DNA of 31,704 nt, taken from positions 1 through 31,704 of the IMG/VR virus record IMGVR_UViG_3300031111_000030. One strand, given 5' to 3'. The notes beneath the pieces are model-generated. The model worked only from the letters and a program-made list of their open reading frames with translations. It did no database searches and had not been told where the DNA came from. The DNA comes from a virus. Numbering within the stretch: position 1 is the stretch's first letter; every line of letters begins with the position of its first letter. Made by a program: the position numbers and the translations under genes. Below are positions 531 through 17,898 of this stretch, piece by piece.

Positions 531-2007
531 GTGGTGGCGGCTCAATAATTTATACTGGATTATCGATCGTCACGGCAAACGGGTTAAATTCCGGTGCAAC
601 ACAGCTCAAAAGTATTTATGGGATAACCGATGGTTTCTTAATATTATTCTTAAAGCCCGGCAGTTGGGATTTACGACATTTATTGATCTGAATTTACTTG
701 ATGATTGTCTGTTTTATCCCAATATTGAGTCCGGGATCTCGGCGCACACAAAAGACGACGCTGGGAAAATCTTTCGCCGGAAGGTGAAATATCCATACGA
801 TAACCTTCCTGATTGGATCAAGGAGCAACGGCCTTTGATCACTGATTCAAAAACAGAACTTGCCTTTAACAACAACAGTATTTTGTCTGTCGGTGTTTCT
901 ATGCGGTCAGGCACATTTCAAAATCTTCATGTCTCCGAATTCGGTAAATTATGCGCTCGTTTCCCTGAAAAAGCCAGGGAAGTAGTGGCTGGATCTCTTG
1001 AGACGGTTGTCCCTGGTGAAATAATCTATATCGAATCCACCGCCGAAGGAAAATACGGAAAGTTTTACGAATATTGCAAGATTGCCGAGGATATGAAGAA
1101 GGCTGGTATCCAGCTTTCCAAGATGGATTACAAGTTTTTCTTTTTCCCCTGGTATATGAACCCGGATAATATTGTCGATGATATTGACGATATGCCGATT
1201 CCAACGGATATGGGCGCCTATTTTGAGAAAATTGAGACGTCCGAAGGGACCGTCTTACAACCGCAACAGCGCTTCTGGTATCTGAAAAAACAATCGATTC
1301 TCGGGCTTGATATGAAACGGGAACATCCATCCACGCCGGATGAAGCGTTTGAAATGTCAGTTATGGGCTCGTATTTCGCAAATGAGTTTACCAAAGTCCG
1401 GAAGGACGGGCGTATTTGCAGTGTGCCGGCCGAGGATGGGGTTGTTGTTGATACATGGTGGGACCTGGGAATATCCAAAAACAATCAAATGGCTGTCTGG
1501 TTTTCCCAAACGGTTGGCCGGGAAGTGCATTTAATAAATTATTACGAGGCGGAAGATGAAAGCCTGCTGCATTTTTCCAATGTGATCGACGAATACGGCC
1601 AGAAATACGGCTATCGATACCGGAATCACCTGGCGCCTCACGATATTGAAGTCCGGGAGCTTGGGACCGGAAAGACAAGAAAGACGATCGCTGCGGAATA
1701 CGGGTTGAATTTTCAGACAATTCCACGCTGCACAAGTAAGCAGGATTCCATTGAAGCTGCCCGGAAAATGCTCGGAGTCTGCTGGTTTGATGAAGAAAAA
1801 TGCGCGGTCGGGGTTGAGCGCCTGGAGAATTACCGCCGGCAGTGGAATGAATCTCGGCAGGTTTACAGCTCAGAACCACTTCACGATGCGAATTCTAATG
1901 GCGCTGATGCGTTTCAGACCGGCGCCCTTGGCCAGAACTTTTTATACGGATCTCGTCGGGCGGTTGCCCATAATCCGGAAGATGTCAACGCACAAGGATG
2001 GACATGA
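472..2007 (+). CDS. terL: Terminase large subunit (ATPase-nuclease)
   Basis: 511-residue packaging motor protein that pumps DNA into the prohead using ATP and cuts the concatemer. The N-terminal ATPase shows an adenine-motif-like segment (KFRCNTAQKYLW, 39-50), a variant Walker A with early Lys/Arg (KARQLGFTT, 61-69), Walker B ending in an acidic pair region (NLHVSEFGK, 151-159) and a coupling motif (IESTAEG, 188-193). The C-terminal RNase H-like nuclease shows DTWWDLG (Asp327/Asp331), PHD (Asp391) and NSNGADAFQTG (Asp479), the expected metal-binding acidic residues. Length is normal for the family. The start overlaps terS by 59 bases, with AAGGAA about ten bases upstream. The stop overlaps the next start as ATGA. 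All catalytic motifs look intact. Confidence 0.95.
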   Translation: MKSLEVPDSYQNLQENLKDKWWRLNNLYWIIDRHGKRVKFRCNTAQKYLWDNRWFLNIILKARQLGFTTFIDLNLLDDCLFYPNIESGISAHTKDDAGKIFRRKVKYPYDNLPDWIKEQRPLITDSKTELAFNNNSILSVGVSMRSGTFQNLHVSEFGKLCARFPEKAREVVAGSLETVVPGEIIYIESTAEGKYGKFYEYCKIAEDMKKAGIQLSKMDYKFFFFPWYMNPDNIVDDIDDMPIPTDMGAYFEKIETSEGTVLQPQQRFWYLKKQSILGLDMKREHPSTPDEAFEMSVMGSYFANEFTKVRKDGRICSVPAEDGVVVDTWWDLGISKNNQMAVWFSQTVGREVHLINYYEAEDESLLHFSNVIDEYGQKYGYRYRNHLAPHDIEVRELGTGKTRKTIAAEYGLNFQTIPRCTSKQDSIEAARKMLGVCWFDEEKCAVGVERLENYRRQWNESRQVYSSEPLHDANSNGADAFQTGALGQNFLYGSRRAVAHNPEDVNAQGWT

Positions 2008-2405
2008 TGAAAAAATTTTACTTAATACTTGGGGTTTTTGTTTTTGCAATTACTTTTCTGTCTTATGCGATTTGTATGGCCGGATCGGTTACGAAGAAAT
2101 GTACGGCAGAGAACCAATACACTACAGCTTTTCAGCCGGCAAGCCTGGCAACGCCTGGAAATAGCCCCCAAAATACAGGATATGGCCAGTTTAATGTATC
2201 GGTTTATGGCTATGGGACAGCTTTCACAAGCGGGAAAGTCAGCCTTTTAAAATCTTACGACGGAACGACTTATTATCAGGTTGTGGAATATACGAGCGCA
2301 ACACAGGCCCAGCGATATGACTATGAGCCCGGGGTTTATTACAAGATCGGAGTGGACACCGGAGAATATGGATTCGGATCTTTTGATGTGAGGTTGAGTC
2401 AATAA
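2004..2405 (+). CDS. Small exported beta-rich phage protein
   Basis: 133-residue protein with an N-terminal signal peptide: MMKKFYL basic start, hydrophobic core through about residue 20, and a plausible cleavage near ICMAG. The mature part is beta-rich (FNVSVYGYG, GKVSLLKSYDG, PGVYYKIGVDTG, FDVRLSQ). It resembles a small beta-sandwich family I know from many phage genomes, in which a Gly-Thr-Val/Leu-Arg-Ser-Phe-Asp-Gly strand and an RLSQ C-terminus recur; those are presumed minor structural proteins. The start is taken at 2004, in an ATGA overlap with terL and with AAGGA at 1994-1998; 1998 and 2007 are alternative ATGs. The odd point is the signal peptide on a gene between terminase and portal. 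Function unproven. Confidence 0.65.
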   Translation: MMKKFYLILGVFVFAITFLSYAICMAGSVTKKCTAENQYTTAFQPASLATPGNSPQNTGYGQFNVSVYGYGTAFTSGKVSLLKSYDGTTYYQVVEYTSATQAQRYDYEPGVYYKIGVDTGEYGFGSFDVRLSQ

Positions 2406-2425
2406 TCACTAAATAAGGCGTAATC

Positions 2426-4501
2426 ATGCTTTCATTTACATCAAACGAGGAACTTCAAGCCCAGGAACAAGCCGAATACGACGAGCGGGAACGCCTGGAA
2501 AGCGGAGCGCTGTCGGATCAGGAATATGTAATCGGCATTGTTGCGTATATTAAGCAATGTTGGGAAGCCGCGAAACGGGCAAAGCAGCCTCACGAAGAAA
2601 TCATGCTGGACAATCTGCGGCGAAAAGTCGGGGAATACGGTCCGGATAAACTCGCTGCGATCAGGGAGCAGGGCGGATCAGAAGCGTTTATGATGCTGAC
2701 GGAAGAAAAGCTGTCAGCTTTTGAGTCATGGGTTGATGAAATTCTTTTCCCGGCGGATTCCAAACCCTGGGGCATTCGACACACACCGAAACCGGAACTG
2801 TCCCCGGAAATCATCGGGCAGATCAAGCAGCAGCTCTTTAACGAGGTTTTACAGCAATATCGGCAGGCCGGCGTTATTCCGACGCCCCAGGATTTTCTGG
2901 CCAGGGCGAATGAAATTATGGAAGATGTGGAGTCTGAAGTTGAAAAGACCGCCAAAAAGAACGCGGATAAGACGGAAAAGTACCTTGAGGATATTGTCGT
3001 TGAGTCAAAATGGCGCCAAGCACTCAGGGATGCGATCTCAGACGTCGGGCTTTATCCGGCCGGATTTTTAAAAGGGCCATTACGGAGAATTCGGAACGAG
3101 CTGCAATGGGGTGAAGGTGGCAATCCGGTTGTCGGGCCTATCGAAAAATGGGAATGGGAATCACCGTCACCATGGGATATTTACCCGTCTCCCAGCTCAA
3201 AGGATATCGGAGACGGATATTTAATTGAGAAAATGAACTTTACCCGTCAGGATTTACAAAGCCTGATCGGCGTTGAAGGGTATAATCAGGAAGAAATTGA
3301 AGAAGTGTTGTCTGCGGCCACGAACGGCAGCTCAAGCCTGAATAACTGGCTCGGATTGTATAATCAGACCGAGCGGAACGAGCTTGAAGGCCGTGAAAAC
3401 GAATGGGAAGATCCAGAAGGTAAAATCGATGGCCTGCAATTTTGGGGATATATTCAGGGTTTGAAGTTAATCGAATACGGCTATCCTGGGGATGCGATCA
3501 AGCCGTTTGACGAGTATTTCTGCGAAACCATATTGATCCATAATTGGGTTATCAAGTGCGAGATTAACGGCGATCCGTTGGGTAGACCGCCCTATTTTAA
3601 GGCCAGCTTCAGGGAAAAGAAGGGCTCTTTTTGGGGGATGGGGTTACCGGAAACCATGCCGGACAGTCAGGACGCTTGTAACGCAACCGTCCGGGCGCTT
3701 TTAAATAACCTAGCGGTCGGGTCCGGTCCCCAGGTTGGTGTTGATATCGGGAAATTTGCCACTGGCGAAAAAGTGACCAAGCTGCGGCCATGGAAAATAT
3801 GGCAGTTTGACTTGGAAAGTCAACCGCAACAGCGAGATCCGATGTGGTTTTTCCAGCCGAAATCACTGGCAAATGAGCTGCTTGGCGTTTATGAGAAGTT
3901 TTCCCAGGAAGCCGACAATAAAACCGGCGTCCCGAGATATTCTTATGGCGCTCAGACGACCGGCGGAGCGATTAATACCGCGTCTGGAATGTCGATGATG
4001 ATGGCGAACGCTGCCCGGAGTATTAAAAAAGTGATCGGGAATATCGATGGCGGGATGATTGAACCGAGTATTGACCGGGTATATCAATGGGCCATGATTT
4101 ACAAACCGATACAATCAATGCTGGCCGGTGATATTAAAGTTGTGGCGCGGGGATCCTCGGCGCTGATCAGTAAGGAAATGCGTCAGGTCCGGAGAAATGA
4201 GGCCGTTCAGACGGTTCTTAACCCGATGGTCCATGGGATTATTGGTAACCACGGTATCGCTGTTATTCTCAGGGAATGGTTTAAAGGCCTTGATTTTGAC
4301 GCGGACGATATTATTCCGAGTGAAGCGGAAATGACACAGATTGAAGCGCTTCAGATGCAGATTCAACAATTATTGCAATATATCCAGGGTGGCGGCGGAC
4401 AGCCGGGTCAGGGGCAGATTGCCGGTCCGGGGAACGCCGAGCAACCGAGAGAAACGGCGCCGGATGGAAGTGTCTCCGGTGATGCGAGGATGGCGGGATA
4501 A
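2426..4501 (+). CDS. Portal protein (podovirus-type)
   Basis: 691-residue protein expected to form the dodecameric ring at the unique capsid vertex, serving as DNA channel, terminase dock and tail attachment. Length, position after terL and ahead of scaffold and coat, and overall style fit the large portals of short-tailed phages. Visible marks are an acidic helical N-terminus, a conserved-looking start of the core (WVDEILFPADSKPWGIRHTP, about 102-121), a central region with WEWESPSPWDIYPSP, the segment KGSFWGMGLPETMPDSQDA, and a C-terminal helix-rich barrel ending in a Gln/Gly-rich tail (QIQQLLQYIQGGGGQPGQGQ). The AAGG upstream of the ATG is modest. It abuts the next gene directly (TAA then ATG). 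I am confident in portal identity but not in the exact subfamily. Confidence 0.88.
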   Translation: MLSFTSNEELQAQEQAEYDERERLESGALSDQEYVIGIVAYIKQCWEAAKRAKQPHEEIMLDNLRRKVGEYGPDKLAAIREQGGSEAFMMLTEEKLSAFESWVDEILFPADSKPWGIRHTPKPELSPEIIGQIKQQLFNEVLQQYRQAGVIPTPQDFLARANEIMEDVESEVEKTAKKNADKTEKYLEDIVVESKWRQALRDAISDVGLYPAGFLKGPLRRIRNELQWGEGGNPVVGPIEKWEWESPSPWDIYPSPSSKDIGDGYLIEKMNFTRQDLQSLIGVEGYNQEEIEEVLSAATNGSSSLNNWLGLYNQTERNELEGRENEWEDPEGKIDGLQFWGYIQGLKLIEYGYPGDAIKPFDEYFCETILIHNWVIKCEINGDPLGRPPYFKASFREKKGSFWGMGLPETMPDSQDACNATVRALLNNLAVGSGPQVGVDIGKFATGEKVTKLRPWKIWQFDLESQPQQRDPMWFFQPKSLANELLGVYEKFSQEADNKTGVPRYSYGAQTTGGAINTASGMSMMMANAARSIKKVIGNIDGGMIEPSIDRVYQWAMIYKPIQSMLAGDIKVVARGSSALISKEMRQVRRNEAVQTVLNPMVHGIIGNHGIAVILREWFKGLDFDADDIIPSEAEMTQIEALQMQIQQLLQYIQGGGGQPGQGQIAGPGNAEQPRETAPDGSVSGDARMAG

Positions 4502-4693
4502 ATGACTCCATCTGAATTAATAGATATGTGCTTAAAAGAAGTTAATGATATTTATCAGGCCGCCGGATTGGATGGGACCAAATACACAGAAGCGGATATC
4601 ATTAAGTTTATAAATAAGGCGCAGTATGACTTAATACTGCATTTAAAACGAAAAGAAATTTTAAAAAGACGGTTTAATGACCTGGCTTCTTAA
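4502..4693 (+). CDS. Short protein resembling the N-terminus of a phage adaptor
   Basis: 63-residue protein starting immediately after the portal stop. The pattern MCLKEVNDIYQAAGLDGTKY followed by EADIIKFINKAQYDLILHL lines up by eye with the first 50 residues of the 225-residue adaptor at 10816-11493 (ILQDTTNVRWASTELLQWLN then DGQREVVLLKP). It could be a truncated duplicate of that adaptor or an independent short member of the same helical fold. It ends in a basic helix (KRKEILKRRFND). The tail overlaps the next small reading frame by 17 bases. Being small, it may bind portal or adaptor, but this is inference. Confidence 0.6.
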   Translation: MTPSELIDMCLKEVNDIYQAAGLDGTKYTEADIIKFINKAQYDLILHLKRKEILKRRFNDLAS

Positions 4694-4811
4694 CTTCATA
4701 AAAGACTTGTGTTCGTCAAAATATTTTGGCGAAGTTACAATAAAATTCACCGACGGGAAGCCGGTGCATATTGAGAAAAAGATAAGTATTAAACCGCCAA
4801 GTGGGGAATAA
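4677..4811 (+). CDS. Small hypothetical protein (44 aa)
   Basis: A 44-codon frame lies between two better-sized genes: MTWLLNFIKDLCSSKYFG, then EVTIKFTDGKPVHIEKKIS, ending KPPSGE. It overlaps the upstream gene by 17 bases and ends TAATG, sharing one base with the next ATG. This coupling is the main reason to believe it. The strand pattern (Y-x-G-x-V-x-I-x-F-x-D-G-K) resembles tiny phage proteins of the DUF2292 sort, but the match is by eye only. The ribosome site (AAAAGACGG) is weak. Confidence 0.5.
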   Translation: MTWLLNFIKDLCSSKYFGEVTIKFTDGKPVHIEKKISIKPPSGE

Positions 4812-5065
4812 TGGAAAAACGCAAGTTCCAAGCAATAGTAAAGTTCGATGGATGGGAAAAAACAACAAACGTGGAATGTGTTTTTAATAACTTTGGCTGG
4901 TTTCCTCCTGAGTATATCAAAATATGTGCACCAATGAAATTAGCTATGAATTTTAAAAACGGTGAACATAAACAGGATACCACCTTCATAGAGCTTATGG
5001 CGGAAATAGTTAATTTTGGACCAGCAGGGAAAAATACTCCGTTTATTTACAGGGTGGTTGATTAA
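4811..5065 (+). CDS. Hypothetical protein (84 aa)
   Basis: 84-residue protein with start coupled to the preceding frame (TAATG) and a GGGG ribosome site at 4803-4806. It looks like a single small globular, beta-containing domain with several aromatic residues (FNNFGWFPPEYIKICAP) and no signal peptide or membrane segment. I recognise no family. It is the last gene before the strong terminator at 5136-5180, so it probably closes the packaging/portal transcript. The 70 bases after its stop hold AT-rich sequence with no gene. Confidence 0.6.
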   Translation: MEKRKFQAIVKFDGWEKTTNVECVFNNFGWFPPEYIKICAPMKLAMNFKNGEHKQDTTFIELMAEIVNFGPAGKNTPFIYRVVD

Positions 5066-5135
5066 ATAATTTTAACACTAAACATTCGGAATAACAGGCG
5101 TTAACAACTAAATAAGACCGGGTATTGAAAAAATC

Positions 5136-5180: not shown

Positions 5181-5188
5181 GGAGTGAA

Positions 5189-5874: not shown

Positions 5875-5960
5875 TCGGCTGACCCGAATATCCGGGCAAT
5901 TCGGTCCGGACTCGGCAAAGTCAGTGAACACCCGAAAGGGCTCGCAGAAGGAGAACCATT

Positions 5961-7001
5961 ATGGCTGAAGCAGCAGAAAAACACGAACCCGATTACAGCT
6001 ATCTTCCCAAGAAGGTAGCGGAACAGGCCAAGGCCTCAGATGATTTAATGAAGGGGCCAGAGAAGACCGAACCGACAACACCGGAAACCCCGGCTGGCGA
6101 ACACGGCTCAGAATCCAAACACGAAAGGAAAGTTTCCGAACCACTGCAAAGCTCGGATTTACCGCCGGAGACGAATAAAGAAACACCGCCCGGAGATAAA
6201 ACCGAAAACTTTGAAGCAAAGTACAAAGTGCTGAAAGGGAAATACGATCAGGAAGTCCCGCGTTTAGCGGCAGAAATCCGGCAGTTAAAAGGCTTTAATG
6301 AGCAATTAACCGCCCAAATTTCTCAGTTGCAGAAGGCGAAACCGACGTCTGACCCGAATGCCGGGTTTGAATCTGACAGTTTATCGGATGAAGACCTGGA
6401 GATGATGGAACCGGAAGTCGTGGCTGTTTACAAGGACAATAAACGGCTCCGGGAAATGGTTCAGGATTTAAAAACCGAGTTGACAAATTCGGTAACTCAG
6501 ATCCGGAACGAAGTCGGACAGACCAGGCAGACCAGCACCCGTAATGTACTTTACAGTCAATTGGACGCTGACCAGCGCGTTAAGGATTCATGGCGGCAGC
6601 AAAACCAAGATCCTGAATTTGTAGGATGGTTGCAAGGAACCGATCCGATTCACGGCATTAAATATATTGATTCATTGCAAAATGCCGAGAAAATTGGCGA
6701 TTCCAACCGGGTTATCGGGATTTTTCTAAAGTTTCAGCAGGAAACCGGCAAAACGTATTCCGATTCGCCGAGTCAACCCAGCACCGGACAGCCGACTATT
6801 CCAAAACCTTCGACGGCTCCCCCTCGGTCACGATCAGAAGGGGCGCCGCCGAAGCAGCCGGAAGGTAAGATTTACACCCGGAAAGAGATCGAGCGGTTTT
6901 ATAACGATCAGGCTGCGGGTAAATATTTCGGGAAAGGCGACGAAGCGAAGCGGATTGAAGCAGATATTATGAAAGCGCAGCACGATGGAAGAATCCGTTA
7001 A
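5961..7001 (+). CDS. Putative scaffolding protein
   Basis: 346-residue protein placed immediately before the coat gene, the usual place for the scaffold that guides prohead assembly and then leaves. It is highly charged and low in hydrophobic residues. The N-terminus is a disordered Pro/Glu/Thr-rich stretch (residues 1-75), followed by a clear coiled coil (GKYDQEVPRLAAEIRQLKGF and ENKRLREM-type heptads, about 85-185), a Pro/Ser/Thr linker (PSQPSTGQPTIPKPSTAPPR, about 270-290) and a basic C-terminal helix (KIYTRKEIERFYNDQAAGKY) likely to bind coat protein. A strong AGAAGGAG ribosome site is present. Identity rests on composition and position rather than a sequence motif. Confidence 0.8.
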   Translation: MAEAAEKHEPDYSYLPKKVAEQAKASDDLMKGPEKTEPTTPETPAGEHGSESKHERKVSEPLQSSDLPPETNKETPPGDKTENFEAKYKVLKGKYDQEVPRLAAEIRQLKGFNEQLTAQISQLQKAKPTSDPNAGFESDSLSDEDLEMMEPEVVAVYKDNKRLREMVQDLKTELTNSVTQIRNEVGQTRQTSTRNVLYSQLDADQRVKDSWRQQNQDPEFVGWLQGTDPIHGIKYIDSLQNAEKIGDSNRVIGIFLKFQQETGKTYSDSPSQPSTGQPTIPKPSTAPPRSRSEGAPPKQPEGKIYTRKEIERFYNDQAAGKYFGKGDEAKRIEADIMKAQHDGRIR

Positions 7002-7058: not shown

Positions 7059-7991
7059 ATGTCAACACCAAGCTCATACGTTGCGGCTTCGTCAGGATAC
7101 CCGCAGCACAGTGATAATTTTATTCCGCAGATATGGTCCGGGAAGCTGTTGGTCAAGTTTTATACGGCCACTGTTTTCGCGGCTATTTCTAACACCGACT
7201 ACGAGGGTGAAATCAAATCCCAGGGGGATACGATCTTCATTCGAACCGTCCCGGATATCACGATTCGCGATTACACCAAAGGTCAGGAAATGACCATTGA
7301 ATTCCCGGACAGCGCCAAAGTCGAATTAAACATCGATAGAGCCAAGTATTTCTTTTTCGGTGTGGACGATATTGACGCCATGCAGTCCGATCTCCGCTTG
7401 CTGGACGATTGGTCAAATGACGCCGGGGAACAAATGGGAATCACGATCGATTCAGGTGTTCTGTCTGATGTTTATTCTGATGCGGATTCCAATAACACCG
7501 GCACGACCGCCGGAAAAATATCTTCCAGTTACGATATGGGAACCACTTCCGACGCCGTTCAGCTCACCAAGGCCAATATCCTGGAGTATATGGTGGATGC
7601 GGCTTCAGTTCTTGACGAACAGGATATCCCGAATTCCAACCGCTGGTTTGTTATGCCAATGTGGGCAACCGGAATGATAAAAAAGTCGGATCTCAAGGAC
7701 GCCTCCCTGACCGGGGACGGTAAATCCATCCTGAGAAATGGCCGGATCGGCATGATCGATCGATGGGAAATCTTTGGGTCCAACCAGGTAGCCAGCGCCA
7801 CGGACGGCGGAAACACTTGTTATCATGCCATTTTCGGGCAGAAATCAGCCTTATCTTTTGCTGCACAGATGACCAAAATGAAACCTGTTTCTCTTGAGAA
7901 ATATTTCATGGACGCCATCAAGGGCCTGAATGTTTACGGCTACAAAGTGTTGAAAGGCGAGGCCATGGGCGATCTGTACTGTCGGAAATAA
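7059..7991 (+). CDS. Major capsid protein (HK97-fold type)
   Basis: 310-residue coat protein forming the icosahedral shell. The N-terminus (QHSDNFIPQIWSGKLLVKFY, about 16-35) and the following AISNTDYEGEIKSQGDTIFI and RTVPDITIRDYTKGQEM match the pattern seen in coat proteins of many short-tailed phages, where these form the N-arm/E-loop region. Later segments such as DEQDIPNSNRWFVMPMWATG and the C-terminal KGLNVYGYKVLKGEAMGDLY fit the A and P domains. Length is normal. AAGGAG at 7044-7049 gives ideal spacing to the ATG. No signal peptide, in contrast to the decoration-type genes around it. Confidence 0.92.
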   Translation: MSTPSSYVAASSGYPQHSDNFIPQIWSGKLLVKFYTATVFAAISNTDYEGEIKSQGDTIFIRTVPDITIRDYTKGQEMTIEFPDSAKVELNIDRAKYFFFGVDDIDAMQSDLRLLDDWSNDAGEQMGITIDSGVLSDVYSDADSNNTGTTAGKISSSYDMGTTSDAVQLTKANILEYMVDAASVLDEQDIPNSNRWFVMPMWATGMIKKSDLKDASLTGDGKSILRNGRIGMIDRWEIFGSNQVASATDGGNTCYHAIFGQKSALSFAAQMTKMKPVSLEKYFMDAIKGLNVYGYKVLKGEAMGDLYCRK

Positions 7992-8083: not shown

Positions 8084-8620
8084 ATGAAGAAACTTGCACT
8101 TTTTATATCACTTTTGATTGTCGCAATGATGATCCCCTGCACCGCGTTTGGCGCAGCCGCGACCCATAGCGACCTTCTGGTCGGAAGCAGTTCCGGCGGA
8201 TTATCCATCGGACCGGGCGTGAAGCTGGTCTATCTGGTTATCGATCTTGATGAAGCAGCCACGGACATTAAAACCGGAAACGTCTTTGAAGCCGGAGACG
8301 TTCTTCAGGCCTTGCAAATTCCCGCATATACGATGGTGCTGAACGCCGGCCTGATCTGTACGGAAGCTGAAAGCACAACGCTTACGCTGGACGTTGGCGA
8401 TGGGGACCAGGCGGACGGGTATGTGGATGGGTATGATGCTGAATCTACGGGCGGTTCAGGTACGGCGATTGCCGAAGCCTACGGGCCTGATAACGCCTTT
8501 GGGAGACTTTACACTTCCGCCGATACGATTGACTTAAAAATCGTAACAATCGGCGCTCAGACCGCCAATAACGCTGTTGTGACAGTTTGGGCGATCTGTG
8601 TCCAGGTCCCGACGGAATAA
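8084..8620 (+). CDS. Exported capsid-associated/decoration-type protein
   Basis: 178-residue protein directly after the coat gene. It opens with a clear signal peptide (MKKLALFISLLIVAMMIPCT, cleavage likely at AFG-A around residues 23-25). The mature part is beta-rich and acidic, with LDLDE-like strands and the segment STTLTLDVGDGDQADGYVDG, a pattern I associate with phage head-fibre or decoration proteins encoded next to the coat gene. Such proteins are normally cytoplasmic. The ATG at 8084 has AAGGAG nine bases ahead; an in-frame TTG at 8039 lies in the hairpin loop and is rejected. Role inferred from position and style. Confidence 0.7.
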   Translation: MKKLALFISLLIVAMMIPCTAFGAAATHSDLLVGSSSGGLSIGPGVKLVYLVIDLDEAATDIKTGNVFEAGDVLQALQIPAYTMVLNAGLICTEAESTTLTLDVGDGDQADGYVDGYDAESTGGSGTAIAEAYGPDNAFGRLYTSADTIDLKIVTIGAQTANNAVVTVWAICVQVPTE

Positions 8621-8660: not shown

Positions 8661-8867
8661 ATGCCTAAAGAAACCGGGAAAGCACCGGAAACCAAAGAGG
8701 CCCCGAAGGCTGAGAAAAAGGTGAAAGGAATTCGGGATAAGTATCTGGTTCAGGAAAAAACGAATCGGATCTATATCCGCACCGACGCCTTGGCCAAACG
8801 GACCGATATGACCGAGTTGCCGGCGGAAGAAGCGCTGAAACGACTTGGGAAGGATGGCCAGAAATGA
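8661..8867 (+). CDS. Small basic/acidic virion-associated protein (68 aa)
   Basis: 68-residue hydrophilic protein. It begins with a Lys/Glu/Pro-rich, probably disordered arm (residues 1-23), then a compact segment YLVQEKTNRIYIRTDALAKR and a helical tail TELPAEEALKRLGKDG. Short proteins like this often follow coat or decoration genes in phages and may be minor head components, but no function is assigned. GGAGG lies ten bases upstream of the ATG. The stop overlaps the next gene as ATGA, so the two are coupled. Confidence 0.7.
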   Translation: MPKETGKAPETKEAPKAEKKVKGIRDKYLVQEKTNRIYIRTDALAKRTDMTELPAEEALKRLGKDGQK

Positions 8868-10069
8868 AAATGAATAAACTTTTTATAGCTTTAATCCTGG
8901 TTGTTTGTGCTGCGACCTGGGCGGTTGCCGCAAGATATGAGCAGCTCACGGTCGGAGAATTGACCGTCACGACCAGCACGACAAACTCCGGGACAATATC
9001 TGCGGAGCAATTGACATCAACAGGCGATGCTACCGTTACCGGAACAATCAATACCGGCGTCGGGATTGACGGCGTGGGTGCGGTTGATCTGGATTACGGA
9101 TCTGCCGATATTACCGATCATACGTTCACTACCAACGATTGCACCGTTGTAATTGATGGAGGTGTGACTATTTCGACCGGGGATAATGTTGTTTTGGGGA
9201 CAACGACCTGGAACAGCGGAGACGGTATTGACGGTGAAGTGATTGGAAATGACACCATCGACGAGGACGCCTTTGATTGGGGTACGGGAACCGACCAGGT
9301 TAGCGGTGCAGACTTCCCGGATGAAGATTTAGGGGATGTTGTGGTGTCTTCTGGTACGTGGTCCCTTGATTCGGACGTTGTGGACGAAGCGCATATCGCT
9401 GACGACGGGATTGATAGTGAGCATTACAACGATGATTCGATTGACGATGCCCATATGAATTTCGGGACCGCAACAAATCAGATATCCGCGTCTGATTTAC
9501 CGGACGAAGACCTGGGCGATATGTCGGTTGCTACCGGCGCATGGACCATTGACGAGGATGTACTCGATAAAGCCAATCTTAAAGACGAGGATTGGGGAGA
9601 TGTCAGTGTCTCCAGTAATTCAGTTACCCTTGATACCGGAGTCGTTGGTGACAACGAGATTGATTATACCGCCGTGACGGGCGCCGATCTGACTTTGACG
9701 GATTGCGGGGCTATTACCGGAACTGCGATTAACGCGTCAACGTCAATGCAGATCGCAAGTGGCGGGACGTTTGCCGTGTATCGTTTTGCTACTGCGGCCT
9801 TAGCAGACGATGGAACTTACACTTTTGCGTCTGCCAATCTTGGGTCTGGCGGCGTAATGTATGTTTTTGCGACAAAAGGCTCCGGTTATGGCGGGACGTT
9901 TGGAATTGGTTCGGATGCTTCCTCTGTTTTATTTGGCGATGCGACTAATGCCGATGATGCGGATACCGATGGCGATCTTTGCGTTTTTGATGGTGGTACG
10001 GATGTTACCATTAAAAACCGAACCGGCGGCGTGACTGACATTTCTGGATGGTATTTATACCAGCCATAA
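8864..10069 (+). CDS. Exported fibre-like repeat protein
   Basis: 401-residue protein with a signal peptide (MKMNKLFIALILVVCAATWA, cleavage likely AVA-A near residue 23). The mature part is very acidic and Thr/Ser/Gly rich and is made of degenerate repeats: FDWGTGTDQVSGADFPDEDL, NFGTATNQISASDLPDEDLG and DEDWGDVSVSSNSVTLDTG, each preceded by Asp/Ile-rich spacers (ADDGIDSEHYNDDSIDDAH). Such repeats are typical of trimeric phage fibres. The C-terminal 100 residues (YRFATAALADDGTYTFASAN to GWYLYQP) look like a compact head domain. It starts in an ATGA overlap with the previous gene. It shares repeat modules with the 913-residue fibre at 11511. Confidence 0.75.
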   Translation: MKMNKLFIALILVVCAATWAVAARYEQLTVGELTVTTSTTNSGTISAEQLTSTGDATVTGTINTGVGIDGVGAVDLDYGSADITDHTFTTNDCTVVIDGGVTISTGDNVVLGTTTWNSGDGIDGEVIGNDTIDEDAFDWGTGTDQVSGADFPDEDLGDVVVSSGTWSLDSDVVDEAHIADDGIDSEHYNDDSIDDAHMNFGTATNQISASDLPDEDLGDMSVATGAWTIDEDVLDKANLKDEDWGDVSVSSNSVTLDTGVVGDNEIDYTAVTGADLTLTDCGAITGTAINASTSMQIASGGTFAVYRFATAALADDGTYTFASANLGSGGVMYVFATKGSGYGGTFGIGSDASSVLFGDATNADDADTDGDLCVFDGGTDVTIKNRTGGVTDISGWYLYQP

Positions 10070-10815: not shown

Positions 10816-11493
10816 ATGTCAGTTTTAACAGCTCAAAACATAGTAGACAGAGCGGAAACGATCCTGCAGGACACGACCAATGTCCGATGGGCGTCAACCG
10901 AACTCTTGCAATGGCTGAATGACGGCCAGCGGGAAGTCGTTCTTTTAAAACCGGACGCCAACCCGGTCAATGAATCTGTCCAGATGACCGCCGGAACCAA
11001 GCAAACCATTCCGGCAACCGGCGTACAGCTAATCGATGTGGTCAGAAATATGGGCGATAACGGAACAACCGTGGGGGATGTCATTACATTTTTAAAGCGG
11101 AATGTTTTGGATTCCGGCAACCGGGATTGGCACGCTGAATCTCAAGACTCTGCGCATGATCATTTCTGTTTTGACGAACGGGACCCGAAGCATTTTTATG
11201 TGTATCCGCCTTCCGACGGCGCGAATTATGTTGAGATTGTGTATTCGGCTGCCCCGGCGGATATCGCGATAGACGCGACCATTACACTTGATGATGTTTA
11301 CGCTAATGCGCTGCTGGATTATATTCTTTACCGGGCTTACAGCAAAGATGCTGAATTTGCAGCCAACGCCCAAAGAGCGGCCATGGCTTATGCGGCGTTT
11401 TTAAGAAGCCTGGGTATGCGCGAGGAAGCTGAAAAGATTTATGACCCGGCCAAACAGCCGGTGAATGTCGCGTCCAACACAACTCAGGGATAA
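10816..11493 (+). CDS. Phage adaptor (head-tail connector) protein, DUF6682-like
   Basis: 225-residue protein of the phage adaptor family that docks under the portal and links head to tail. The N-terminal signature reads AETILQDTTNVRWASTELLQ, then WLNDGQREVVLLKPDANP, with TKQTIPATGVQLIDVVRNMG further on; a strand segment DPKHFYVYPPSDG, the conserved YSAAP, and a C-terminal helical bundle (NALLDYILYRAYSKDAEFAA) complete it. This order is characteristic. AGGAGG lies ahead of the ATG. A shorter lookalike of its N-terminus is encoded at 4502-4693. Confidence 0.88.
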   Translation: MSVLTAQNIVDRAETILQDTTNVRWASTELLQWLNDGQREVVLLKPDANPVNESVQMTAGTKQTIPATGVQLIDVVRNMGDNGTTVGDVITFLKRNVLDSGNRDWHAESQDSAHDHFCFDERDPKHFYVYPPSDGANYVEIVYSAAPADIAIDATITLDDVYANALLDYILYRAYSKDAEFAANAQRAAMAYAAFLRSLGMREEAEKIYDPAKQPVNVASNTTQG

Positions 11494-11510: not shown

Positions 11511-14252
11511 ATGAGAAATTTTATCTTTTGCGCCTTAATTATCATTGTAACCGTTATTGGTTTTACTCCAAGCGCGCAGGCGGCTCAAGTATATGCGGAT
11601 ATGGTCAAGGAATCGTCCACAACGACCGGGACCGGGACATTTTCACTTGGGGGCGCTGTGACCGGGTATCAGACTTTTGTTGATGGCATCGGAGACGGCA
11701 ACACCTGCACTTATCAAATTAAAAACGCAACGGATTGGGAAGTCGGCCTCGGAACCGTCACTGACGACAATCCAGACACATTAAGCCGGGATACGGTGTA
11801 TGCGAGTTCAAATTCCGGATCAAAAGTCAACTGGCCGATCGGGAGCAAAACGGTTACCTGCGTTCTAACGGCCCATAATATTGATTCTTTTTCCAGTGCC
11901 GGATCTCCGATCACTTTAGATATTGGGGATGACGGCGGCAATGACTCAACGGCGGTTAATGAAATCGCCACAAACGGGGACACGAATAACGCCATCACCA
12001 TGCCGAGCGCTGATAAGGTCTATATTGATTTTAGCCAGAATTGGCCAACAGCGGACACGGCAGAAGTGATTAGCGACGGGACTAACACCAAAACAGCCGC
12101 CCAGGTCAAATCTCATATTGACAGCACCAGCAATCCGCACAGCGTAACCGCGTCTCAAGCCGGAGCGGTGGCTTTAACCGGGGATGAAACCGTGGCCGGC
12201 GTGAAAACCTTTTCGTCTTTTCCGGTGACGCCTTCTTCTTCTCCGTCAACCGATTACCAGGTAGCCAACCGAAAATTTGTAACGGATCAGATTGCTATAA
12301 CGTCTGGTACGATTAATACCATCGAGGAAGGGGATTCTCAAACCGGTGGCTCTGATATCGTAACGATTGATTTTAACGGGGATGATTTTAATTTATCTGA
12401 ATCACCGGATACCGAAATTAATATCACCATTAATGACGGTGGAGTTGACCATGATTCCACTTTAAATTATTCGGCTGATGAACATTTTACACAGGCTGCG
12501 ATATCGATTACAAATTCTCAGATAAGTGATACAAACGCCGGGACGGACCCGACCGCAGACCTTGAAGAAGAAACCCATGCGTCTGAGCATCAATCAGGCG
12601 GAACCGACGAAATTAAGCTGGATGATTTGGGCGCTCCGGATGATAACACGGATCTTAATGTCTCAATCACCAAACACGGATTGACGCCAAAAGCGCCGAA
12701 TGATGCGAGTAAGTTTTTAGACGGAACCGGAAGCTGGTCAACACCGTCCGGATCAGGGTCGGCCATTACGCTTGACCTTGGAGACGACGGCGGAGACGAC
12801 AGCACAGATTTGACGGAAATTGCGACTTCCGGAGATACAAACAATATTATTACGATGCCGAGCGCCGATAAGGCGCATATCGACATGGGGCAAAACTGGC
12901 CGACTTCCGATACCGCCAATTCAGGCGATTCCGCCACAGGTTTTTTTTCGACCGGCACTATTGAGCATGAACGGGGCGGCCTTGAAGCCAATGTGTCCGC
13001 CTATGACGGGCTTGTAAAAATATCCGGAGGGTCAACGTCTCAAGCAGTGGCCGGGACAGATTATCTGGCGCCTGATGGCGTCGGGACCGCTCTTACCGCG
13101 TTGAATGGAGAAAATATTCAGGACGATACCATTGATGATGACTCCATCGATTTTGGAGACGTCACCCTTAACGACCTGACATTTGATGTCGGTGGTGTGT
13201 CAAAGACAGAATTTGCATATGGATCTACTGTTACAAGTAATATTCAGGACCAAATTGACGCCCAGGAGGCTGAATTAAATAATTCGGCAGGCCTGGCGGC
13301 GGCCCTATCCGATGAAACGGGAACCGGATCAGCCGTCTTTTCCAATTCTCCAACCTTGGTATCTCCATCTTTAGGGACGATTAATTCAGGGGTAGGGACT
13401 GCTTTAACCGCTTTGAACGGCGAAAACATTCAAAATGACACGATTGACGACGATGCGTTTGACTTTGGAACCGGGACGGACCAGGTATCGGCTGCGGATA
13501 TCCCGATTGCTGACGCCGGGAATTTAATTACCGGGACCGAAGTTGAAACCGCTTTACAGGAGAATAGATCAGCCATCGACTCGCTTGAGGCTGTTGATAA
13601 TATAACTGAAACCGAATTATCTGACGAGTCTGAATTAGAGGGGCAATTGACCGATGTTTCAGACGTCTATACCGACAATGATTTCGCATACGGAACCGCC
13701 GTTACAAACGGTGATGCCAACATTCCTGATGCGGATTCAGTTTATGATTTCGCCACGGCTAATTTTGTTGAAAAAACAGATTATACTTTTGGGACCGCCG
13801 TTACAAACGGGGAAGCAGGGTTGACCACAGGGGATGATGTTTATGATTTTTGCGAAACTTCGCAGGATTATTTAAAGACATCAGAAAACGACGATTTTTC
13901 ATTTGCCACGGCCAACGCCACCAAAACATTTAACGCATCTGAATTAACCGGACGCATTGAACTGCGGCACTCCGGTACGACAACATATGCTTTTGGAACG
14001 GCTCAAACCGTTTACGAATTAGAACAATCCGCTGCTGTGTTCGTGTTTGCGACAACTGATGGTGCGTATTTTGATGCCCAGGCAACCGATAAATTTATCA
14101 GAAACGGGGCAACCCAGGCAGACGGGTATAAAGTGAGTGCGTTATCTCCATCAGTCGGTGATTGTTTTGTTTTAACCCCGATTAAAGTCGGATCAGATTA
14201 CCAATATATGTTTAGTCCAGTTTTAGGAACCTATGAAGATGGAGGCCCATAA
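11511..14252 (+). CDS. Large exported tail-fibre protein
   Basis: 913-residue fibre. After a signal peptide (MRNFIFCALIIIVTVIGFTP, cleavage likely AQA-A near residue 25) comes a well-known phage fibre attachment-type domain: VKESSTTTGTGTFSLGGAVT, then GYQTFVDGIGDGNTCTY, then TLSRDTVYASSNSGSKVNW (about residues 33-125). The shaft is built of repeats: a 51-residue unit at 134-184 and 419-469, a 27-residue unit at 523-549 and 627-653, and a 33-residue tandem unit starting at 724 and 757. HGLTPKAPNDASKFLDGTGS (about 393-412) is also typical of phage fibres. The C-terminus (RIELRHSGTTTYAFGTAQTV onward) is a compact domain. The attachment domain normally starts cytoplasmic fibres, so the signal peptide ahead of it is unusual. 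Confidence 0.85.
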   Translation: MRNFIFCALIIIVTVIGFTPSAQAAQVYADMVKESSTTTGTGTFSLGGAVTGYQTFVDGIGDGNTCTYQIKNATDWEVGLGTVTDDNPDTLSRDTVYASSNSGSKVNWPIGSKTVTCVLTAHNIDSFSSAGSPITLDIGDDGGNDSTAVNEIATNGDTNNAITMPSADKVYIDFSQNWPTADTAEVISDGTNTKTAAQVKSHIDSTSNPHSVTASQAGAVALTGDETVAGVKTFSSFPVTPSSSPSTDYQVANRKFVTDQIAITSGTINTIEEGDSQTGGSDIVTIDFNGDDFNLSESPDTEINITINDGGVDHDSTLNYSADEHFTQAAISITNSQISDTNAGTDPTADLEEETHASEHQSGGTDEIKLDDLGAPDDNTDLNVSITKHGLTPKAPNDASKFLDGTGSWSTPSGSGSAITLDLGDDGGDDSTDLTEIATSGDTNNIITMPSADKAHIDMGQNWPTSDTANSGDSATGFFSTGTIEHERGGLEANVSAYDGLVKISGGSTSQAVAGTDYLAPDGVGTALTALNGENIQDDTIDDDSIDFGDVTLNDLTFDVGGVSKTEFAYGSTVTSNIQDQIDAQEAELNNSAGLAAALSDETGTGSAVFSNSPTLVSPSLGTINSGVGTALTALNGENIQNDTIDDDAFDFGTGTDQVSAADIPIADAGNLITGTEVETALQENRSAIDSLEAVDNITETELSDESELEGQLTDVSDVYTDNDFAYGTAVTNGDANIPDADSVYDFATANFVEKTDYTFGTAVTNGEAGLTTGDDVYDFCETSQDYLKTSENDDFSFATANATKTFNASELTGRIELRHSGTTTYAFGTAQTVYELEQSAAVFVFATTDGAYFDAQATDKFIRNGATQADGYKVSALSPSVGDCFVLTPIKVGSDYQYMFSPVLGTYEDGGP
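11910..12917 (+). repeat. 51-residue direct repeat in the fibre gene
   Basis: Copy 1 is at 11910-12062 and copy 2 at 12765-12917, in the same frame 285 codons apart. Both encode ITLD(I/L)GDDGG, then an EIAT-x-GDTNN-x-ITMPSADK core and end QNWPT(A/S)DTA. Most differences are conservative. They look like duplicated shaft modules and could mediate recombination between fibre genes. Confidence 0.8.
13077..13469 (+). repeat. 27-residue direct repeat in the fibre gene
   Basis: Copy 1 at 13077-13157 and copy 2 at 13389-13469 both encode GVGTALTALNGENIQ followed by (D/N)DTIDDD and an FG end. The second copy continues into TGTDQVSAADIP, which matches a repeat of the separate fibre-like protein at 8864-10069 (there TGTDQVSGADFP). 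Confidence 0.8.
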
Positions 14253-14669
14253 ATGAAAAAAATTATTTTAATTTTAGCATTAATCTTTTTTGCATCCCCG
14301 GCGCTGGCAGACGGCCCGGTTTGCGTGGATGCGGTGTACGATGCGGCGCTGGCGTATTTTGAGAATGCGGACCGGATTTTCATCGGCCCGAATTATCAAT
14401 ACGGCAGCAAGCTGGGCGAAGTGACGATTGACGGTGACGACGTATCGCCTGTCAACGGCGGGACGGACGGCAGGGCGTTGCAGATTGAAGCGCAGAGCAT
14501 TACCGCGTCCGGAACCGGAACGGCGGACACAATGGGTATTTATGACGTGGACACGACTACCGTGTGGGCGTACTGGCCGATCACGGAAAAGTCCATCACC
14601 AGCGGCGCGGTTTACACGTTCGCCACAGCATCCCCCATTACCATCAGGGACATCACGGAAACGCCATAA
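14253..14669 (+). CDS. Exported hypothetical virion-type protein (138 aa)
   Basis: 138-residue protein with a model signal peptide (MKKIILILALIFFASPALAD, cleavage ALA-D at 19/20). The mature part is beta-rich and acidic; two cysteines are close to the mature N-terminus or within it, and the C-terminal half has alternating Thr/Ser-Ile/Val patterns (SITSGAVYTFATASPITIRD). It starts immediately after the fibre stop and is followed within 16 bases by the next secreted-type gene. Codon use looks richer in G and C than the flanking fibre gene, hinting at separate acquisition. No family recognised; an accessory fibre or surface protein is the best guess. Confidence 0.65.
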   Translation: MKKIILILALIFFASPALADGPVCVDAVYDAALAYFENADRIFIGPNYQYGSKLGEVTIDGDDVSPVNGGTDGRALQIEAQSITASGTGTADTMGIYDVDTTTVWAYWPITEKSITSGAVYTFATASPITIRDITETP

Positions 14670-14685
14670 AGTGAGGGCCATATTT

Positions 14686-15321
14686 ATGAAACGAATATTT
14701 TTTGCCCTGATTTATCTGGCAATGACAGCCACCAGTGCATGGGCAACAAATCCGTATGACGGCACACAGCAATATACCTTCGGGTCGTTTACCGGCGGAA
14801 CGGACAACGCGCTGGACTCGGTGGACACGACCGCTCTGGCCGACGGGTACACGGCAACCGTCTATAATAACGGGCATACATACAATTATGTACTGGATAT
14901 TGATTCGGAGGCATCAGAGGGCAGCCAGACCGTTCCCGACCCGATAGAACCGGACACCGGCCCCGGTGCGTGGGATCTTTACCATACGTCCAGCGCGAAG
15001 GAATATACCATCACCACCATGCACACATCATGGGCGGACGGCCTGTCTGACACGGAAATCTGGCGGACCGACCTGTCTGCTGGTGAGGTTTTAACACCAA
15101 CACGGCTTGAAATTATGTATAAATTCGGCACGACTTCCAGCTCGGACTTTAATATTGATGTGTACGATGACACCACAAGCACCGAACTATGGTCAACCTA
15201 TACGTTTGGCACAGGGTCGCCGTCATCGTCCGGGGCCGGAAACCAAGTAATTTTACGAATCACCAATGATACCGGCGCAGCCGTCGAGGGGTGTGTGAAT
15301 TTTAGTTATGAGATTCAATAA
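14686..15321 (+). CDS. Exported hypothetical protein with beta-rich C-terminal domain
   Basis: 211-residue protein with a signal peptide (MKRIFFALIYLAMTATSAWA, cleavage AWA-T at 20/21). The middle (SQTVPDPIEPDTGPGAWDLY) is Pro-rich and may be a linker. The C-terminal part (LEIMYKFGTTSSSDFNIDVY to NDTGAAVEGCVNFSYEIQ) looks like one beta-sandwich, as in carbohydrate-binding or fibre head domains, but I cannot name a family. The ATG at 14686 is chosen because GTGAGGG lies just upstream and the signal peptide begins there; the frame is open further upstream but only as a shadow. The end overlaps the next gene by 14 bases. Confidence 0.65.
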   Translation: MKRIFFALIYLAMTATSAWATNPYDGTQQYTFGSFTGGTDNALDSVDTTALADGYTATVYNNGHTYNYVLDIDSEASEGSQTVPDPIEPDTGPGAWDLYHTSSAKEYTITTMHTSWADGLSDTEIWRTDLSAGEVLTPTRLEIMYKFGTTSSSDFNIDVYDDTTSTELWSTYTFGTGSPSSSGAGNQVILRITNDTGAAVEGCVNFSYEIQ

Positions 15322-16201
15322 ATTTTTTATTATTTTTCTTTTTTTAATAGCACCGGCGGTTTGCTTCGGCAGTCAGACCGTCCGGCAGGTGACGCCGACC
15401 GGAGTGCTGAAAACGTCCGCCACCGGTGTGACCCGCAATTATGACCATGAATATCATTTGTTTACCCGGCATGGGCAGTCAAATTCGATGGGCAGAGGCT
15501 ATGCGGAAGATTCTCCGACTGCGGTTGGGATTGAAATCGAAGACGACGACACGATAAAATACACCATTGCCGATCCATTAGGGACGGACTCCGGTTCATG
15601 GCAGGAGGCGATCACCGGATGCGCTGGTCCGTCATTTGCTAAAAAATATTATGAATTGACTGGTCGGAAGGTTGCGCTTTTTAATGCGTCTAAAGGGGGA
15701 ACTTGTGTGTCAGATTGGAACAGTTCTCTATATTCTGAGGCACATTTAGATATTGATGCCGCTTTATCAGCCCTGACAACAGCAGGGATTGACTATACAT
15801 ATATGGGAGTTATTTGGTTCCAAGGGGAATGTGAAACGGTTTGTATAACCGGAGAAACTTGCACAAAAGCAAATTATATAACATGGACAGAAACATTAAT
15901 AGCGAGTTTCAAGTCTGACTTTCCGCAAGAAACATATCCGAACTTTAGATTTCATATTGTTCAGATAGGCATTTGCACGACAAACGGATATGCGTCCGGG
16001 GCGGCGGAGGTTAGGGCGGCACAGGAAGAAATCTGTAATGATGATGCAGACGTTTATCTTGCATATGAAAACCCATACACCACCATGCTGAATGTTCACT
16101 ATGACCACTTAAATGATGATATGGACGATCATTCAGAGGGCAATACTCAATATAATGCCATCGGCGAGGGTATCGCCGAAACATTGGCAGCAGAGAGGTA
16201 G
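15308..16201 (+). CDS. Exported SGNH-type carbohydrate acetylesterase (SASA-like)
   Basis: 297-residue predicted O-acetylesterase. After a signal peptide (MRFNKFFIIFLFLIAPAVCF, cleavage near CFG-S) the protein shows block I HGQSNSMGRG with the likely nucleophile Ser58, a block III-like segment GVIWFQGECE (168-176) in which WFQGE matches the sialate O-acetylesterase/DUF303 group, and a C-terminal DDHSEGNTQYNAIGEGIA (273-290) that should carry the catalytic Asp-His pair. In phages such enzymes strip acetyl groups from host surface polysaccharide to expose or modify the receptor. The start lies within the end of the previous gene and lacks a strong ribosome site, suggesting coupled translation. 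Substrate unknown. Confidence 0.82.
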   Translation: MRFNKFFIIFLFLIAPAVCFGSQTVRQVTPTGVLKTSATGVTRNYDHEYHLFTRHGQSNSMGRGYAEDSPTAVGIEIEDDDTIKYTIADPLGTDSGSWQEAITGCAGPSFAKKYYELTGRKVALFNASKGGTCVSDWNSSLYSEAHLDIDAALSALTTAGIDYTYMGVIWFQGECETVCITGETCTKANYITWTETLIASFKSDFPQETYPNFRFHIVQIGICTTNGYASGAAEVRAAQEEICNDDADVYLAYENPYTTMLNVHYDHLNDDMDDHSEGNTQYNAIGEGIAETLAAER

Positions 16202-16203
16202 GC

Positions 16204-17334
16204 ATGAAAAAAGTTTTTTACATTTTTCTTTTTTTGGCATTTTCAGCCATTTCCGCATACGCAGCCGTCGGTTTTAACCCGGCGGACAAATCCTCTGACA
16301 TTACCCTGTCAAACGGGAATAAAACCGCAACCTGTACCGGATCAAACTGGGTTTCGGTGCGCGGGGTCACGTCCCACGCCAGCGGGAAATACTATGCAGA
16401 GTTTAAAGTCACTGACTGTCAGTCATCGTCGATTATCTGCGGAGTAGGCACGTCGTCAGCGACCTTGGCCAGCTATCCCGGCAATGATAATGCAGGATGG
16501 GGTTGGATGGGCGTAAACGACGCGTCAACATCTTGCCCTAAATATCATCAGGGCTCTGGCGTAACCCTCGGAACAGAAGGTGATGAAGGGGATACTATCA
16601 TGGTAGCAATATGGTTTGAGGCGGATATTATTACCGGGGACCATGTATGGTTCGGGCGCAATGGGGTCTGGATGGAGTCAGGAGATCCGGCTAACAATAC
16701 TGATTTTCATTTTTCAATACCCCCTAACGAGAATCCGACATTATTTTTAATGGGGGGACTCCATGTCAACGGGCAAGATGTTGTTTTACAGTCGGAGGCG
16801 TCTGAATTTACATATACGCCACCGAACGGATTTAGCGCGTGGGAACAGTCGTTTTCTGTGTCCGGCACCCTGAAAGAAAAAGAAGCTGACGCTTCGGGCG
16901 CAGCCTATCAATATTTGCTGTTATCTGCAACACAGCACAGTGTCTACGCACATGGAACGGCTGCATCTAACGGTACGTGGTCTGAAACTGTCGAAGACAC
17001 TGACGATGAATACTGCGGCATCCTGATTGACAATATCGGCGGGGCGGTTCAAGACTATAACTACGGGACGGACACCACAGCATCCGGTACGTGGTCGATC
17101 ACCAACGCGGGATGGGCGGACGGGGATACGGTGTGGGCGTTTTTTGTTGACCCGGACAAAGTTTATAAAACAATCGCGGACGCATTTTATGCGACATCAT
17201 ACGGCACGATTTCCGGCACCCACCAGGAGAACGGCGTCAACGCCACCGGCACGCTGGTATATGCGGCTGGGTTTGGTACGACATCTGGCACATATGATCC
17301 AAAGCCGATCTTTGATTTTGCGACAGGTGATTAA
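16204..17334 (+). CDS. Exported SPRY-domain receptor-binding-type protein
   Basis: 376-residue protein. Signal peptide MKKVFYIFLFLAFSAISAYA is cleaved likely at AYA-A (20/21). Residues about 30-212 read as a SPRY/B30.2-like concanavalin fold: SGKYYAEFKVTDCQSSSIIC, then CGVGTSS, GWMGVN, GDTIMVAIWFEAD, VWFGRNGVW and the closing EFTYTPPNGFSAW. SPRY domains occur in phage and bacterial surface-binding proteins. The rest (220-376) is a beta-rich Gly/Thr/Ala domain with repeating GTW and ADGDTVWAFFVDPDKVY segments. AGAGAGG precedes the ATG. It lies between the esterase and the Cys-repeat protein in a run of secreted-type genes, consistent with glycan recognition. Confidence 0.72.
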   Translation: MKKVFYIFLFLAFSAISAYAAVGFNPADKSSDITLSNGNKTATCTGSNWVSVRGVTSHASGKYYAEFKVTDCQSSSIICGVGTSSATLASYPGNDNAGWGWMGVNDASTSCPKYHQGSGVTLGTEGDEGDTIMVAIWFEADIITGDHVWFGRNGVWMESGDPANNTDFHFSIPPNENPTLFLMGGLHVNGQDVVLQSEASEFTYTPPNGFSAWEQSFSVSGTLKEKEADASGAAYQYLLLSATQHSVYAHGTAASNGTWSETVEDTDDEYCGILIDNIGGAVQDYNYGTDTTASGTWSITNAGWADGDTVWAFFVDPDKVYKTIADAFYATSYGTISGTHQENGVNATGTLVYAAGFGTTSGTYDPKPIFDFATGD

Positions 17335-17898
17335 ATGCGGTTTTTTACTTTTTTATTAATAGCGTGGGCAGTTATTTTTACAAGTGTCGGTCTTTGTTTT
17401 GCCAGCAATGCGACCCGGCTGATTGATTCTGCTCCCGCTTACAATGCCTGCAACGGTGAGTTTGTGGAAACGGTCACGATCACAGATTGTCAATGTTTCG
17501 TGTATGCCTCAAACATATTAATCACCGGCGGCCCGGAATTGGAAATAACAGATTGCCAGTGTTTAGTTTATAGCTCAGGAACGGAGTTGTCAAAATTAAC
17601 AAACGTCACACCGCTGATCGTGGCCGCACCGACATATGACGCCTGCGACGGGTCGTTTGTGGAGAGTGTGACGATAACGCCCTGTCAATGTTTGATATAT
17701 GCGTCTGATGTGACGCTGACAATATCACCCCTTTATATTGAGATAATCGATTGTCAGTCCCTTGTCAAGTCGGCCCGGTTCGGGAATCAACGCGAATACC
17801 GACAATTTCGCACATGGGGAAATAACCGGACGTGGAGCGGAAATTCCGGGGTTGAATGGAAATCAAACAATGCAATACTAATACAGGTAGGCCAATAA
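17335..17898 (+). CDS. Exported cysteine-repeat protein
   Basis: 187-residue protein with a signal peptide (MRFFTFLLIAWAVIFTSVGL, cleavage near CFA-S). The mature part has a four-fold motif: ITDCQCFVYAS, ITDCQCLVYSS, ITPCQCLIYAS and, degenerate, IIDCQSLVKSA. A larger duplication pairs APAYNACNGEFVETVTITDC with APTYDACDGSFVESVTITPC. The even spacing of CxC pairs and the signal peptide suggest an extracytoplasmic fold held by disulfides or binding metal. The C-terminus turns basic and aromatic (EYRQFRTWGNNRTWSGNSGV). It directly abuts the SPRY gene with no gap. I know no family with this repeat. Confidence 0.65.
   Translation: MRFFTFLLIAWAVIFTSVGLCFASNATRLIDSAPAYNACNGEFVETVTITDCQCFVYASNILITGGPELEITDCQCLVYSSGTELSKLTNVTPLIVAAPTYDACDGSFVESVTITPCQCLIYASDVTLTISPLYIEIIDCQSLVKSARFGNQREYRQFRTWGNNRTWSGNSGVEWKSNNAILIQVGQ

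Follow-up and report, generated by a model that had tools for sequence, protein, structure and literature searches.

Tailed phages are taken to assemble entirely in the cytoplasm. The virus record IMGVR_UViG_3300031111_000030, a linear IMG/VR fragment of 31.7 kb (31,704 nucleotides; the whole stretch is referred to as the window), raises the question of why nine genes of its structural module open with Sec-type signal peptides. This module is of the SU10-like podovirus type, lies on the plus strand and comprises a terminase, an SU10-type portal, a scaffold-type protein, a coat protein (Phage_capsid_4), an SU10-type adaptor, a phrog_511 hub, an 819-amino-acid (aa) fibre, and a large open-ended polyvalent protein. 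Judging from sequence, export of the signal-bearing proteins is very likely. The tentatively favoured explanation is that the nine genes encode precursors of virion-appendage type with cleavable Sec signals, which would be exported and then joined to virions at lysis.

Signal peptides were called with a custom scorer that evaluates the charge of the n-region, the hydrophobic core, and a matrix of positions -3/-1/+1. In a calibration on 150 kb of Escherichia coli K-12 with known localisation, a threshold of 4.2 was passed by 11/11 exported, 1/81 cytosolic, and 4/35 inner-membrane proteins. By itself, the scorer does not distinguish cleaved signals from membrane anchors at the N-terminus; some true anchors, e.g., GspG and TolA, are also accepted. 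The nine genes, designated here by their start positions (Table 1), score from 4.05 (17335) to 7.3, and all 22 other genes tested score below 3.5. The claim of the earlier note that these nine genes carry Sec-type signals was thus confirmed, and both its start coordinates and its list of signal-less genes proved correct. When the first 45 residues were shuffled, 1.4% of the trials passed the scorer. In the structural loci of related phages, 14 of 1573 genes pass, compared to 9 of 31 in the window (binomial p about 6e-12). All nine proteins show the hallmarks of Sec export and signal peptidase I cleavage, namely a basic n-region, a hydrophobic core, and small residues at -3/-1; in gene order, the predicted -3..-1 triplets are SYA, AFG, AVA, AQA, ALA, AWA, APA (or CFG), AYA, and CFA. 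A lipobox with cysteine at +1, as in lipoproteins processed by signal peptidase II, was flagged in none of the nine proteins. Each of the nine genes has a start codon of its own. Ribosome sites of at least the AGG/GAGG type are located 5-9 bases upstream of the starts of 2004, 8084, 8864, 11511, 14253, 14686, 16204, and 17335; the start of 15308 is without such a site and overlaps the end of the preceding gene by 14 bases.

Signal-less homologues indicate how these precursors are composed. From residue 25 on, the 913-aa fibre encoded at 11511 matches fibres of cultured phages, with homologue residue 2 corresponding to window residue 25 and an identity of 58% over residues 25-115. This bears out the observation that an attachment domain follows straight after the signal peptide. 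The same 'VKDRVKETTTTTGTGT' N-domain is found in fibres of Venkman (gp58), HTVC023P (gp58), CRP-6 (gp61), and ctXG6705 (59-75% identity to the ctXG6705 member), which are encoded where the fibre block begins. In these four phages the domain starts at residue 2 of the gene, whereas in the window fibre it is preceded by a signal peptide of 24 residues. The predicted cut AQA^A (24|25) would thus let the mature 913-aa fibre begin at the equivalent of homologue residue 2. In cultured phages, the signal-less fibre genes start 10-20 bases downstream of the gene before them; in ctXG6705 and Venkman, this neighbour comes after the tail-tube/adaptor genes. The window fibre occupies the slot after the adaptor, and the gene order is similar in these two phages.

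A comparable arrangement is found for 8864, the predicted mature N-terminus of which, ARYEQLTVGELTV, matches the signal-less starts MRYEQLSVGELTV in locus L165 and MRYEELTIG in L073; a signal-bearing version of this protein is encoded in L202. In 11511, 8864, and L202, the predicted cut is located exactly at, or one residue from, the natural N-terminus of the homologues. Signal-less homologues of 8084 lie in or near the same slot after the coat gene in L039, L033, L083, and L023, and gene position and homology suggest a decoration role for this protein. Its predicted structure is of low confidence (predicted local distance difference test score 54), and the structure matches are almost all unnamed or uncharacterised phage proteins. 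Neither 15308 nor the L033 relative of 8084, when used as queries, had a match among cultured phages, and no close relatives of the window's own signal-bearing genes were found. Taken together, the predicted signals precede ordinary virion modules as clean additions. The earlier note had considered that homologues might start downstream of the hydrophobic segments. This is the case, but it does not imply wrong starts, because nine genes of one module carry such a segment and relatives contain the same domain both with and without a signal. Wrong start codons were also rejected on the grounds of the ribosome-site-like sequences in front of eight of the nine genes and the recurrence of the pattern.

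This recurrence was followed in 132 loci collected by coat-protein alignment, most of which contain a module without any signal-bearing gene. L151, with a coat protein 53% identical to that of the window, has five signal-bearing genes in its fibre block, followed by a sixth (L235), and the set includes a tail-collar fibre (PF07484, E 1e-11; phrog_523, E 8e-27). In L015 and L084, the coat-adjacent protein bears a signal, and further signal-bearing genes of fibre type or without assignment follow. A second common fibre N-domain (phrog_30879) was counted by coordinates across 56 IMG/VR loci; 48 of these begin at the domain, and a signal precedes it in four (L345, L354, and L358/L359; three lineages). 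The phage of L084 is a further case. In the signal-bearing loci, the domain is matched at residues 25-65, 33-83, and 32-82, compared to 4-54 in the signal-less L355. In L354, the residue after AKA corresponds to homologue residue 2 (AFWQWSKTA vs M-AFWSWSKTA), although the scorer favours an earlier site, and the mature protein aligns over almost its full length to a protein of Bradyrhizobium phage ppBeUSDA76-2 that is annotated as a tail fibre. Mature L354, L358, and L345 match the same domain and the C-terminal tail families of the phrog_30879 tail-collar fibres of Mae-JY35 and ppBeUSDA76-2, from which they differ by a signal peptide of about 24-31 residues. L345 has a second fibre-type gene (4441-6222) with a likely signal (MPLLRKVIIGALLALLSSPA, score 5.0) ahead of 'LGAGQVLGNSTAAQRPA'. 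Clusters of 2-5 signal-bearing genes beside other phage structural modules were found in L091 (1382-5772), L093, and L074 (17031-21441); matches of their proteins to fibre families are few or absent, and these clusters are regarded as supporting only. In L074, the sequence after the cut at 20464, '^ANTKTTDLPATTDIQGTDIFYIVDGG', resembles a fibre N-terminus. From these comparisons, the predicted export signal is a real and recurrent addition that was gained independently.

A different context was found in Nitrospirota, of which 396 genomes were searched, with the signal called from the best of alternative starts. In L181, L182, and L199, which are prophages in Nitrospirota assemblies, and in L323, a signal-bearing protein of 134-168 aa is followed by large signal-bearing proteins that mostly contain lectin domains or are tail-related. 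These cassettes are located between the portal and the scaffold or coat genes. The same two-gene signal-bearing cassette is present in podovirus-like and Mu-like prophage modules (L386, L387, L388, L390, and L380-L385) and seems to move between phage types. The signal is present in 11/11 loci in which the gene could be called. Identities of 26-71% in the signal compared to 49-80% in the mature part indicate that signal function is kept while its sequence drifts. Profile comparison revealed no relation between the 2004 protein and the Nitrospirota 134-aa family.

Table 1. Signal-bearing genes of the window, followed by other genes of its structural module
Feature	Coordinates	Strand	Predicted signal	Score and cut	Family match or other evidence
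133-aa secreted-type protein	2004..2405	+	2004-2069 (long core, possible anchor)	5.1, SYA^I	no family match
178-aa decoration-type protein	8084..8620	+	8084-8152	6.0, AFG^A	just after coat gene
401-aa fibre-type protein	8864..10069	+	8864-8929	7.3, AVA^ARYEQLTVGELTV	
913-aa tail fibre	11511..14252	+	11511-11582	6.4, AQA^A	standard fibre N-terminal domain directly after signal (residues 25-115)
138-aa protein	14253..14669	+	14253-14309	7.2, ALA^D	
211-aa protein	14686..15321	+	14686-14745	5.4, AWA^T	
297-aa SASA-type carbohydrate esterase	15308..16201	+	about 15308-15370	6.4	PF03629, E 2e-14; phrog_4201 tail fibre, 3e-6
376-aa protein with phage-virion-protein domain	16204..17334	+	16204-16263	6.1, AYA^A	phrog_10080, E 5e-16
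187-aa cysteine-rich repeat protein	17335..17898	+	17335-17403 (weakest of nine)	4.05, CFA^S	
Terminase large subunit	472..2007	+	none	-7	phrog_2, E 3e-20
Portal	2426..4501	+	none		PF23899 SU10_portal, E 2e-14
Scaffold-type protein	5961..7001	+	none		position; homologues upstream of coat gene; phrog_13678
Major capsid protein	7059..7991	+	none		PF25209 and phrog_267
Tail adaptor	10816..11493	+	none		PF24175 SU10_adaptor, E 8e-34
Tail-hub/internal virion type protein	18528..20249	+	none		phrog_511, E 2e-94
819-aa central-fibre type protein	20250..22709	+	none	-3.9	phrog_33754, E 2e-9
Candidate tenth exported or membrane protein (TTG start inside preceding gene)	22657..23133	+	core GVILIICLMFSS, then KSEA^F	3.4 (below threshold)	

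Some further properties of these proteins were noted. The C-terminal half of the 14686 protein is 45.8% identical over residues 107-210 to a tail-module protein of Halorubrum virus HRTV-2, and the 16204 protein is 35% identical to a virion structural protein of Xanthomonas phage DoCa1. The 17335 protein contains two cysteine-rich repeats (AC.G.FVE.VTIT.CQC..YAS), with nine cysteines in its mature part of 164 residues. The open-ended polyvalent protein (26556-31703) has at least 1716 aa and an inorganic-pyrophosphatase-type domain (PF18823, E 1e-45); giant proteins like it (2000-4000 aa) are encoded in a comparable position by the L015, L151, L073, and L039 phages. Two phrog_511 homologues (G001:C1:31026-32981 and G009:C1:12845-14734) were matched with one internal stop codon or as two pieces. 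A portal-based scan found no relatives.

According to the favoured explanation, the appendage proteins, i.e., the head-surface protein, tail fibres, carbohydrate esterase, and others, would be produced late from the structural operon as precursors and translocated by SecYEG. Cleavage by signal peptidase I would restore the normal N-terminus of the domain, and the mature proteins would fold in the periplasm. In a less certain step, fibre and decoration subunits would bind to cytoplasm-assembled particles via their conserved attachment domains when lysis unites both, and the virion would thus be completed outside the inner membrane. For the tail hub and the 819-aa fibre, both without a signal, the usual assembly route would apply. 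Leaders gained repeatedly before domains that work without them are most naturally read as a sign of export. For the exported proteins, joining of virions is favoured over an action at the envelope because the attachment domain is conserved after the predicted signal; mature subunits should therefore still meet a virion, hence the suggested addition at or after lysis. Still more tentatively, some tailed double-stranded DNA phages may split their morphogenesis, with capsid and tail formed in the cytoplasm and fibres and head-surface proteins delivered to the periplasm as Sec precursors, to join the particle only at lysis; a signal placed before standard fibre domains would have been gained several times.

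Several observations weigh against this explanation. Most phages with the same domains lack a signal. Among the 80 nearest relatives of the N-domain of the 913-aa fibre, 79 begin at the domain and a signal is absent from all 80, which indicates that the domain functions without export; the trait is rare and lineage-specific. The Nitrospirota cassettes are found outside the usual fibre position, occur in two prophage types, and are cargo-like. Cysteine is not clearly enriched in the exported parts (8.5 compared to 7.2 per 1000 aa), and disulphide folding was therefore rejected as a general reason for export.

An alternative that comes close, particularly for the esterase and the Nitrospirota cassettes, is that the proteins are exported and cleaved without becoming virion parts. 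Recruited phage domains would then serve at the envelope or after phage release, e.g., in receptor masking, in superinfection exclusion, as glycan-modifying enzymes that free the progeny, or as adhesins of lysogenic conversion. This is possible, if somewhat less likely. SASA esterase and lectin-type domains fit work on glycans, the Nitrospirota cassettes are placed like cargo, either in Mu-like tail modules or flanked by portal and scaffold genes, and the window phage retains a signal-less fibre. However, canonical fibre N-domains and a coat-slot family are conserved after the signal, which would be difficult to account for if there were no virion partner, and nine genes in one structural module far exceed any exclusion system known to us. 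A precedent for such a role is Lom, an exported protein encoded between the tail genes of phage lambda (PMC12309495). Lom is likewise phage-encoded, has a signal peptide, and acts at the envelope, but it is a single accessory gene without a virion-attachment domain.

The earlier note had offered virion addition outside the inner membrane, coating or modification of the host surface, and membrane anchoring as options. This is still the right set, but anchoring is weakened where the cut coincides with the N-terminus of the homologues. Uncleaved signal anchors that tether fibre or decoration subunits to the inner membrane, where particles would be completed, are unlikely. Such anchors are most conceivable for 2004 and 17335, whose long hydrophobic cores (uncharged runs of 22-23 residues) make these two proteins the weakest with respect to signal versus anchor, and the acceptance of true anchors by the scorer leaves room for them. 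Most of the nine proteins, however, have small -3/-1 residues, the cuts in 11511, 8864, and L202 coincide with or adjoin natural N-termini, and the attachment domain of an anchored fibre would face the periplasm, away from particles assembling in the cytoplasm. It is very improbable that the proteins are not exported and that their hydrophobic N-terminal peptides have a structural function in the virion, such as docking of trimers to capsid or tail. Some phage fibres do dock through short N-terminal peptides, but the nine proteins belong to several families that have the pattern of charge, core, and AxA-like site in common rather than a sequence, their homologues manage without a hydrophobic segment, and the Nitrospirota signals diverge faster than the mature parts, as signal peptides do. 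An artefact of wrong starts or of a mis-assembled contig with captured host genes for secreted proteins, which the downstream starts of some homologues and the origin of the window from one single uncultured contig might suggest, is highly improbable and in the main refuted by recurrence of the pattern in independent contigs and host chromosomes; the ribosome-site-like sequences before eight of the nine genes also speak against it, as do structural families and a gene order as in SU10-like phages, with at least 11511 and 8084 belonging to phage virion-type families.

Among known systems, the podovirus module of SU10 and phiEco32-like phages has portal (PF23899), adaptor (PF24175), and capsid families in common with the window, the difference being the signal peptides encoded in the window's fibre block, which lies between adaptor and tail hub. 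T5 Llp is another phage-encoded, exported accessory protein with a signal peptide that acts at the envelope, and it is likewise a single gene without a virion-attachment domain. Known signal-bearing virion proteins are the coat proteins of filamentous (Ff) phages, e.g., pIII and pVIII, which have type I signals and are exported through SecYEG (PMC4823517). In contrast to Ff phage, which assembles in the inner membrane around single-stranded DNA, the window phage has a capsid, portal, and terminase of the type found in phages assembled in the cytoplasm. Export-coupled assembly of the filamentous type, with a membrane-inserted coat, an assembly ATPase, and neither portal nor terminase, is therefore not what the window encodes. 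The exported tailed-phage proteins in the cited papers are lysis or accessory proteins (PMC3765740, PMC12309495), and phage targets of diversity-generating retroelements are stated to be without signal peptides (PMC6199706). The open-access literature searched yielded no description of signal peptides on fibres or decoration proteins of tailed phages; subscription papers were outside the scope. The statement that such proteins would be new for a phage of this type holds to that extent, as 'not found' and not as 'absent'.

Repeated gain of export signals on precisely the surface-exposed subunits would imply either that late maturation of tailed phages can occur outside the inner membrane or that fibre-type proteins are deployed as secreted agents. 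A leader before a fibre domain would be a simple sequence mark for spotting such phages. Caution is also warranted with annotations in prophages, where a 'bacterial secreted protein' may be a phage fibre.

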